A stretch of DNA of 51,441 nucleotides, taken from an uncultured Planctomycetota bacterium. GTDB taxonomy: Bacteria; Planctomycetota; Phycisphaerae; Sedimentisphaerales; UBA12454. Below the pieces are notes generated by a model. It was not told where the DNA came from. It searched no databases and worked only from the letters and a program-made list of their open reading frames with translations. A program made the translations under genes and the position numbers. Positions 29,384-37,406 of the stretch are shown here, piece after piece. Where the stretch lies: contig CAINDG010000012.1 of the NCBI GenBank assembly GCA_903847315.1, positions 1 through 51,441 on the forward strand, given 5' to 3'. The stretch's first letter is position 1, and every line of letters starts with the position of its first letter.

Positions 29384-32008
29384 ATGGATGAAATTCAACA
29401 GAAAATCGAGGAGTTTAAACAGGACCTTCAGTCCCAATCGCCTTTGAAAGAAATTTTTCTTTCCTGCCCTGCCGTTTTGCCAGCTGTCGGTTTAATCATC
29501 GGCCTTGTTTTACAATATTATTTCAATTTGCCGCTGCTTGTCTGGTTCGGCTTTTTAATTCTTTCGATAATTTTATATTTGCCATTGTTTTGCAGGAAGA
29601 CCGTCATTTCGACCGAAGTGAGTCCCGATTCATCGGGACGAGCAAAGCGGAGAAATCTGTTTTTTTATAGATTTCTCGACTTCGGCATCTTTGATGCCTT
29701 CGCTCGAAATGACAAGAGAGAATTTTTGCAGATTTTTATTTCTATCTTATTATGTTTTATTTGCCTCGGCGGTATTCGATTAATATCGCAAAATAAACCA
29801 TTCCCAAACGACATTCGCAATATTGTAAATCAGGATTCCTCTTTCGCTCGCATCAGGGCGCAAATCATCTCTGCCCCGGCGATTGTCGAAAATAATGACT
29901 GGTTTTTCGCGAAAAATTTCCCTTCCACGCCTTATACGACCTTTTACGCAAAAGTAACCGATATAAAAACCGCATCAGGCTGGATGACGGCGGCCGGCAC
30001 AATAAAATTTTACATTTCGGAAGATATCAACAGTTTAAACCTCGGCGATAAATTCGAGTCTTTTTGCAGACTTGAAAAATTCTCTCCTGCCGACAACCCC
30101 GGCCAATTCGACATCGCCGCCTATATGAACAACAACGGCGTTTATCTTTCCGCTTCCGTCAAAACCGTAAACACCATAACAACATTCGGCACCGAAAACT
30201 TCAAATCGCCGTTTGATATAAAAGTAAAATTGCACAACCTTGCCGTCACCGCCTTAAACGGCAACACAGAACCGGACGATGATATGCGTCTTGTTGAAGC
30301 ACTCCTGTTGGGCAGCCGAACAAAAATCAACAGGCCGCTTTACAATGATTTTATAAAGACCGGTCTTGTACATCTGGTCGCCCTTTCCGGTATGAATGTC
30401 GGAATCCTTGCAGGCTTTTTCTGGTGGCTCTCCAAAAAGGCAGGCCTTTTGCACAAAGGACGTTCTATCGCCTGCATAATTGCAACGATTATTTTTATTT
30501 TGGTAGTCCCTTCTCAATCGTCAATCCTTCGTGCAGGCATAATGTTTGCTATCTTCTGTCTGGCACGTTTATTTAACCGTCAATCAAAAACGTTAAACAG
30601 TCTTGCCCTCTCGTTGATTTTGCTCTTGCTCATAAGACCGATAGATTTTCTGGACGCAAGTTTTCAATTGTCCTTCGCAGCGGTGCTTGGAATATTGCTG
30701 TTTTATGAACCAATCAAAAAATATCTTTCTGTGCCTATTGAACCGCTGCGACAAACTCCATTTTATTTATCTGTGCGAATGCCTCTCTATATGTTTGCAG
30801 TTGGTCTTGCCGCATGGACAGCTATTATCCCGCTCATCGCATGGCACTTCTATCAATTCCAGACGCTTACCTCTGTTTGGACTGTGCCTGCCGTTATTCC
30901 TGCAACAGTTATCACTGTTCTGGGCACATTAAAAATTTTATTAAACCCCCTGCTGCCGACCCTGGCTTATGGTTTAAGTCTTGTTATCGATTTTTCAGCG
31001 AAAATCCTCGCGTATCTTGTTACTCTCTTTGCCAAAGTCCCGTTTACCTCTATAATTATCGGCAAACCGTCAATTTATATCGTTTTGCTTTTTTATATTT
31101 TGCTTTTCTTATGGAAATTTTTCCCGTTCAAAAGGTCTGCAAAAAATTATATTTACCCTGCGGCAATTACCTTTTTATTAATTTTTACCGTACTTATAGC
31201 CAAATTTGAAAAATTCGGCAATTTGCAATTGACTGTTCTATCTGTCGGCCACGGGCAGGCGATTTATCTCAAAACGCCGGACAGTAAAAATTTCATCATC
31301 GACGCAGGCTCAATAACAAACACTAACATCGGCGAAAAAATAGTTAATCCTTTTTTAAACTACATCGCCGCCGATAAAATCGATTCTGTATTCGTCAGTC
31401 ACGACGATATCGACCATTACAACGGCTTGCCTGAAATATTGGACAAACACAAATGCAAAAACGCTTACACGACCCCACAATTTATACAAAACGCCGCGAC
31501 CTCGCCGGCTGACGCCAGGTTAATTGAGTTTATCAAATCCAAAAATATTCCTCTTTGCGTTTCGCCCGAAAAAATTTCATCAGGTAAAGTTATTATAACC
31601 CGCTTATGGCCGAGAGAAACGCCGGACGAAAATTCTTTAATGGATAATCAGTCCTCTCTTGTATTATTGATTGAATACGCCGGCAGGAAAATCCTGTCCT
31701 GTTCCGACATAACCGCCGATATTCAAAAGCAGTTAATGGTTTTATATCCGCGACTGGACATTGATTTGATGATTACTCCTCATCACGGCTCAGCAAGAAC
31801 CGCCGATTCCGATTTTATAAACGCCTTCAAACCTGAATTTTTGATTACAAGCTGCTCAGAATCGCGACTTTCCTCTGTTGATGCGCAGATTAAGGAACAT
31901 TCTCAAAGTTATTATACCTGTAGCGATGGTGCGATTACCGTTTTAATTGATTCAGCCGGCAAAATCAAACTTTCGCACTGGACTAACCTGGCGAAAATAT
32001 CAGAATAG
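29384..32008 (+). CDS. comEC: ComEC/Rec2-family DNA uptake channel
   Basis: 874 residues. N-terminal membrane helices lead into an OB-like soluble region. The competence domain is at about 300-560 (LVEALLLGSRTKIN, LVALSGMNVGILAG). The C-terminal metallo-beta-lactamase-like domain has LSVGHGQAIYLKTPD, VSHDDIDHYNG and TPHHGS. The family carries transforming single-stranded DNA across the inner membrane, and the C-terminal domain is thought to degrade the second strand. Residues 74-110 are encoded by a palindromic element (29603-29713) inserted in phase 0, placing a basic peptide between helices 2 and 3. The 3' end overlaps the convergent minus gene by 26 bp. Confidence 0.9.
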   Translation: MDEIQQKIEEFKQDLQSQSPLKEIFLSCPAVLPAVGLIIGLVLQYYFNLPLLVWFGFLILSIILYLPLFCRKTVISTEVSPDSSGRAKRRNLFFYRFLDFGIFDAFARNDKREFLQIFISILLCFICLGGIRLISQNKPFPNDIRNIVNQDSSFARIRAQIISAPAIVENNDWFFAKNFPSTPYTTFYAKVTDIKTASGWMTAAGTIKFYISEDINSLNLGDKFESFCRLEKFSPADNPGQFDIAAYMNNNGVYLSASVKTVNTITTFGTENFKSPFDIKVKLHNLAVTALNGNTEPDDDMRLVEALLLGSRTKINRPLYNDFIKTGLVHLVALSGMNVGILAGFFWWLSKKAGLLHKGRSIACIIATIIFILVVPSQSSILRAGIMFAIFCLARLFNRQSKTLNSLALSLILLLLIRPIDFLDASFQLSFAAVLGILLFYEPIKKYLSVPIEPLRQTPFYLSVRMPLYMFAVGLAAWTAIIPLIAWHFYQFQTLTSVWTVPAVIPATVITVLGTLKILLNPLLPTLAYGLSLVIDFSAKILAYLVTLFAKVPFTSIIIGKPSIYIVLLFYILLFLWKFFPFKRSAKNYIYPAAITFLLIFTVLIAKFEKFGNLQLTVLSVGHGQAIYLKTPDSKNFIIDAGSITNTNIGEKIVNPFLNYIAADKIDSVFVSHDDIDHYNGLPEILDKHKCKNAYTTPQFIQNAATSPADARLIEFIKSKNIPLCVSPEKISSGKVIITRLWPRETPDENSLMDNQSSLVLLIEYAGRKILSCSDITADIQKQLMVLYPRLDIDLMITPHHGSARTADSDFINAFKPEFLITSCSESRLSSVDAQIKEHSQSYYTCSDGAITVLIDSAGKIKLSHWTNLAKISE
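29603..29713 (+). repeat. Palindromic element inserted in frame within comEC
   Basis: A 111-bp unit bounded by GTCATTTCGA (29603-29612) and its exact reverse complement TCGAAATGAC (29704-29713). Inside are three nested hairpins: TCCCGAT/ATCGGGA (623-629/632-638), GAGAAATCT/AGATTTCTC (650-658/669-677) and GGCATC/GATGCC (684-689/693-698). Length is exactly 37 codons, and it encodes residues 74-110 of ComEC with no stop. The outer ends resemble the widespread dispersed palindromes starting GTCATTTCGA or GTCATTGCGAG, two related pieces of which occur at 34937 and 37373. Confidence 0.85.
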
Positions 32009-34905: not shown

Positions 34906-35246
34906 TGTTTAGCCCCCAGTTTTACTGGGGGTTCATGTCATTGCGAGCGCAGCGAAGCAATCTCGTATTGTCATTCCCGCGAATGCGGAAATCCAAAATT
35001 ATTTATGTCGTGGTTATACTTTTTTTTGCCTTACTTCTTACTATTGTTTAGCGGTTATTTTCTCGCCAAAATAGTCTCGACAGGGCGATATTTTGAATTA
35101 TTCGCGGCTTTTGCAGCAAAACTGTTGTAAAACGGTTTGAAACCCTTGAAATTTGGAGAAGATTTTGGTATTATAATGAACTTAGTGTGCTTGGTTGCGT
35201 ATCAAGAGTTTGACATAGGAAATGTTTTAGATAAGCACGATTTTTT
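34906..35246. other. Intergenic region with hairpin and dispersed repeats
   Basis: 341 bp. It holds the hairpin-plus-repeat unit at 34908-34967, a second repeat fragment at 34969-34995 with CCCGC/GCGG arms, and an AT-rich second half. TATAAT at 35172-35177 is a possible -10 for the protease gene, but no good -35 is at the right distance. No gene seen. Confidence 0.6.
34908..34967. repeat. Composite hairpin plus GTCATTGCGAG repeat, copy 1
   Basis: TTTAG, hairpin CCCCCAGT/ACTGGGGG (34913-34920 and 34924-34931), then GTCATTGCGAG to CAATCTCGTA (34937-34967). The same order (TTAGCC hairpin, then GTCATTGCGAG to CAATCTCGTA) recurs at 37345-37406, so the two parts seem to travel as one unit. It follows the pectinesterase stop directly. 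Confidence 0.7.
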
Positions 35247-37344: not shown

Positions 37345-37406
37345 TTAGCCCCGCCACCTGTGGGCGGGGTTCGTCATTGCGAGGCCGCAACCGAAGCAAT
37401 CTCGTA
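37345..37406. repeat. Composite hairpin plus GTCATTGCGAG repeat, copy 2
   Basis: TTAG, hairpin CCCCGCC/GGCGGGG (37349-37355/37363-37369), then GTCATTGCGAG to CAATCTCGTA at 37373-37406. The stem differs from copy 1, but the tail is nearly identical, with three extra bases. It is in the 98-bp gap between the RF-like gene and tadA. Confidence 0.7.

Follow-up and report, generated by a model that had tools for sequence, protein, structure and literature searches.

The comEC gene of an uncultured Planctomycetota bacterium carries, in frame, a 111-bp palindromic element. We consider it most likely (probability about 0.86) to be a non-autonomous CGTC-type REP-like dimer of two units, A and B, similar to RPE-4 and RPE-6 of Rickettsia, which would have entered comEC once this lineage had separated from its nearest sampled relative and is tolerated in a loop of the protein. 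The coordinates are those of the window, by which we mean the whole stretch of DNA analysed (51,441 nucleotides). The source genome, G000 (2.44 Mb in 54 contigs, 97% complete), was compared with relatives, which bear the other G numbers.

Table 1. The comEC gene and the parts of the palindromic element within it (window positions).
Feature	Position	Strand	Evidence
comEC, 874 aa; DUF4131, Competence and metallo-beta-lactamase domains	29384..32008	+	ORF, translation, Pfam
111-bp palindromic element, 37 codons, phase 0, encodes VISTEVSPDSSGRAKRRNLFFYRFLDFGIFDAFARND	29603..29713	.	absent from ComEC of G003, G006 and G009
Unit A, 56 bp: GTCATTTCGA-C-CG...hairpin...GC-G-GAGAAATCT; tag CGTC at 29602-29605	29603..29658	+	own-genome pattern match
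Unit B, 45 bp: GTCATTTCGA-G-CG...hairpin...GT-C-GAGAAATCT; tag TGTC	29669..29713	-	own-genome pattern match
AT-rich 10-bp spacer separating the tails of units A and B	29659..29668	.	
Unit A internal hairpin GTCCCGAT..ATCGGGAC	29622..29639	.	inverted-repeat arms and fold
Unit B internal hairpin GGCATC TTT GATGCC	29684..29698	.	fold

As can be seen from Table 1, the open reading frame is that of ComEC, by its Pfam matches (DUF4131, Competence and Lactamase_B); the closest named match, from a Sedimentisphaerales MAG, is 36% identical, comparable to other families of the same order. An earlier note had described a 111-bp palindrome with perfect 10-bp ends and three hairpins, and this proved exact down to its coordinates: the terminal repeats (29603-29612 and 29704-29713) match perfectly over 10 bp and, when extended, at 15 of 16 bp, and the RNA fold has three internal hairpins (-55 kcal/mol, z = -8.5). 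The reading frame given there also holds in the ORF and its translation. The element begins at codon 74, since (29603-29384)/3 = 73, and adds residues 74-110 with no stop in any of its 37 codons. The Kyte-Doolittle profile places these residues in a hydrophilic stretch with hydrophobic segments on either side, in keeping with the loop beside membrane helices that had been proposed. The added peptide, however, is approximately neutral rather than basic, as it has six K/R and five D/E. Tryptic peptides predicted from the sequence include NLFFYR and FLDFGIFDAFAR. A search of Rfam gave no credible match for the element (best E 0.91), and a search of the literature gave no relevant match for the unit sequence.

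The element, which had been taken for a single unit, consists of two different REP-like units joined tail to tail, as a heterodimer. We analysed 213 such units and 10 tail-in dimers from sampled loci of several phyla. The units follow the pattern GTCATTTCGA-S...S'-GAGAAATCT, and in all 213 of them S and S' were complementary: GTCATTTCGA was followed by C and GAGAAATC preceded by G in 124 units, and these two bases were G and C in the other 89. Units are 37-58 bp long. Each has a 5-bp stem, beyond which GA faces GA; a single complementary pair and a nested hairpin, whose length varies, come next, and the tail is CT plus one variable base. All 10 tail-in dimers were A+B. This suggests that it is the hairpin of the individual unit that is preserved, and that joining A to B prevents a perfect long palindrome, because S and S' would pair in the unit's own stem, whereas in an A+B dimer C faces C and G faces G. 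Heterodimers have been proposed to escape removal as long hairpins (PMC3733652). Alternatively, A and B may be two old sublineages of the unit, since only two states (C/G and G/C) occur.

Further copies, for which the earlier note had proposed a search, are present in the source genome. It has 19 exact units (none with a reversed-pattern control), 35 sites with GTCATTTCGA ends (3 with the reversed control) and 33 with the GTCATTGCGA ends of a sister family (4 in the control); individual copies were studied in stretches extracted from it. BLAST of the element against its own genome gave 46 matches at E <= 10, the best copy being 81% identical over the full length. Twelve other genomes of the family contained 0 to 21 exact units, and G000 has more than any other sampled genome of the genus. 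Among the matches listed, the pattern occurs in named genomes of Clostridia, Bacteroidales, Pedobacter, Planctomycetota, Rhodospirillaceae, Verrucomicrobia, Treponema and others. Carriage by phages was considered and rejected as the main route, since viral contigs with the unit amount to only 5 records. Elsewhere in the window, a GTCATTGCGA-type unit (34937-34964) is followed five bases on by a GTCATTCCCG-type unit (34970-34994), so that three related repeat types coexist in the genome; a further GTCATTGCGA-type unit (GTCATTGCGAGGCCGCAACCGAAGCAATCTC) lies at 37373-37403.

Y1 transposase (PF01797) gave no match in G000 and was found in 12 of 12 relatives of the family. Among 47 sampled Y1 loci of these relatives, CGTC-type ends lay within about 200 bp of the domain in 3, all partial domain hits; the other sampled Y1 genes had none that close. 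The three partial domains are at L370 (G005:C173:403-2573), L359 and L364. The Y1 gene flanked by repeats that marks RAYT-mobilised REPs and REPINs was thus not found in G000. The repeat is most likely moved by an enzyme acting in trans, which would recognise it as a single-stranded hairpin. As a repeat-rich genome in which Y1 transposase is undetectable, G000 offers a place to search for the enzyme that moves CGTC repeats.

Insertion in frame extends beyond comEC. The genome holds at least seven in-frame landings, comEC included; the others are in lipA, ribD, mfd, a radical-SAM/AsnC-type gene, a Kdo/WaaP-type kinase gene and a putative YkgJ-like gene, named by sequence and without a Pfam match. 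A GlcD/Fe-S gene carries an in-frame copy of the GTCATTGCGA type. Frame and orientation are combined in at least three ways among the in-frame copies (VIST/VISS, CHF and ARND). The lipA element (110 bp, in frame) is absent from nine of nine aligned relatives, eight of which are shorter there by 36 codons and one, G006, by 29. Homology to solved LipA breaks off and then resumes around this insert, and the family fold would put the site between a helix and the strand FELLVPDF. At the ribD site, the proteins of G003 and G009 are shorter by 11 codons. In the YkgJ-like gene, a B unit occupies one site in one frame in both G000 and G006 and is lacking in G003 and G009. The Mfd insert falls outside the part that aligns with the solved structure. 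Per unit, 3.74 of 6 reading frames are open, against 3.11 of 6 in shuffles; as this is only slightly more, we make no case for an element designed to be translated.

Several further observations were made. At the site of the G000 mfd unit, mfd of G006 (L322) has a short tandem repeat, GNDNKS, that ends in RNDIGIIS. In G007, an A unit (L245; G007:C143:16780-16827) is part of a 481-aa ORF, in frame with it; by its sequence the ORF looks like a PabB/TrpE-type enzyme. The YkgJ-like gene (L287; G000:C13:143790-144398) has a second in-frame palindromic element, which measures about 105-115 bp and has ends close to ACCCCCACACCAATTT. Copies of it occur at L340, L341 and L342 and, in G009, at L343-L347; several stop where a prepilin leader seems to begin (the end at L342 reads K-L-V-W-G-F-T-L-V-E-I).

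We compared the ComEC loop among relatives. The loops of G003 (the sister genome, with 69% ComEC identity to G000), G006 and G009 contain no such palindrome, so that the 37 codons are absent from all three, as the earlier note had proposed to check in close relatives. The loop of G004 has a B unit in reverse orientation, so that a B unit forms the end of the insert in G004 as it does in G000. G001, G002 and G005 carry an unrelated hairpin there, of the GTAG type (GTAGGGGC-type), and the CGTC and GTAG types have no evident sequence in common. A ComEC tree computed without the loop grouped G000 with G003 (100/99), then G009, and G004 with G005 (100/100). On this tree the CGTC-type insert of G000 and G004 requires at least two changes. 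The GTAG type was scored before G001 was found to carry a GTAG-type hairpin; with G001 counted, this type could be one gain plus a loss in G004. As the CGTC type needs at least two changes and the GTAG type possibly one gain, we count at least three insertions in the loop. Two unrelated repeat superfamilies in one ComEC loop, together with empty loops in other close relatives, favour recurrent insertion.

It is also conceivable, though unlikely, that a single ancestral palindrome in the ComEC loop later diverged, was converted to other types or was lost. The terminal B unit common to G000 and G004 would fit this, as would a single GTAG insertion in the subclade of G001, G002 and G005, and a common origin is what the authors of the Rickettsia study preferred for the RPE-4/6/7 sites (PMC3767692). 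One gain, however, would need several clean losses, because the loops of G003, G009 and G006 are palindrome-free and G000 groups strongly with G003 and G009; nor do the two repeat types share evident sequence. A selected role in comEC, either as an mRNA hairpin tuning expression or as a useful protein loop, appears very unlikely. The RNA fold is indeed very stable and palindromes recur in this loop, but copies also lie in unrelated genes in differing frames and orientations, relatives differ in the sequence of the loop, and the closest of them have no insert. That comEC is a pseudogene, or the insert an artefact of a draft assembly in 54 contigs, is hardly credible, as 874 codons are open with all domains present and lipA, ribD and mfd show the same pattern of in-frame copies. 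A join by repeat collapse is also unlikely, since the nearest other copy is just 81% identical.

We favour insertion of an A/B heterodimer, although some features count against it: the unit departs in form from described CGTC families, no target-site duplication could be demonstrated, and Y1 transposase is undetectable in the genome with the most exact units of its genus. The element would be selfish and more or less neutral, and would last wherever a loop can accommodate added residues. The copy in comEC would persist because its length is a multiple of three, its frame is stop-free and the hydrophilic loop between transmembrane segments accepts the residues. ComEC with the insert is probably still translated and working, and the added peptide probably has no selected role. 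A broader proposal we put forward tentatively and consider doubtful: that this is a distinct CGTC-like family crossing phyla, which moves only as an A+B heterodimer, is spread by a non-Y1 enzyme, and has true recurrent landing sites in certain protein loops, that of ComEC among them.

In Rickettsia, RPE types differ at the same sites of orthologous genes, and the choice between a hotspot and a common origin was left open (PMC3767692). On this question of recurrent insertion versus one old, diverged insertion of RPE-4/6/7, the ComEC loop speaks for recurrence. LipA, RibD, Mfd and ComEC, in turn, are housekeeping proteins that together allow one to measure how well a peptide encoded by a repeat is tolerated; a guanylate kinase bearing an RPE is translated and active, according to a review (PMC2229807).

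The CGTC and GTAG REPs are widespread in eight phyla, often as heterodimers and sometimes within genes (Di Nocera et al. 2013, PMC3733652). Since intragenic copies are described in several phyla, an in-frame palindrome outside Rickettsia is not the unusual case that the earlier note supposed. According to the same study, CGTC-1 and CGTC-4 equal RPE-6 and RPE-4 of R. conorii, respectively, two Xanthomonas species have different REPs at about the same recB site, and CGTC REPs have no dedicated transposase. Our element shares with CGTC REPs the CGTC or TGTC tag (the variants allowed are CGTC, TGTC and CCTC), a stem starting with AT (ATTTC...GAAAT in each unit), a repeated, dimeric form, and a mainly intergenic location with some intragenic copies; Planctomycetes are among the reported hosts (PMC3733652). 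In contrast to their stem of 8-9 bp and loop of 4-5 bases, it has an interrupted 5-bp stem with a nested hairpin, and its tail is of the CT type, whereas theirs is short, unpaired and mostly CCA. With tag, stem start and dimer form in common, and stem length, loop size and tail different, we regard it as a variant rather than a member of a named CGTC family.

The likeness to Rickettsia RPEs noticed earlier holds in form. RPE-4/6/7 also have ATGAC ends, are about 70-190 bp long, lie in frame in housekeeping genes and, as in the ComEC loop, occur as different types at one site of orthologous genes (PMC3767692). The two elements measured here, in comEC and lipA, are in-frame palindromes in the range of about 100-150 bp. 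In sequence, the likeness is that of the ATGAC end, which was compared with the published text. Unlike the RPE case, the host is not Rickettsia, the site is shared by two unrelated superfamilies, and it is empty in close relatives. With GTAG REPs and RAYT-mobilised REPs and REPINs, in the excerpts of PMC2817692 and PMC3116915 on which this comparison draws, the element has in common short inverted paired units, and a GTAG-type hairpin takes its place in the ComEC loop of three relatives; within the same excerpts, it differs from RAYT-mobilised REPs in its CGTC tag and in a host without detectable Y1 transposase. Three things are new with respect to all of these: a unit with a nested hairpin, the pairing of A with B, and a single ComEC loop that two repeat superfamilies have used repeatedly.
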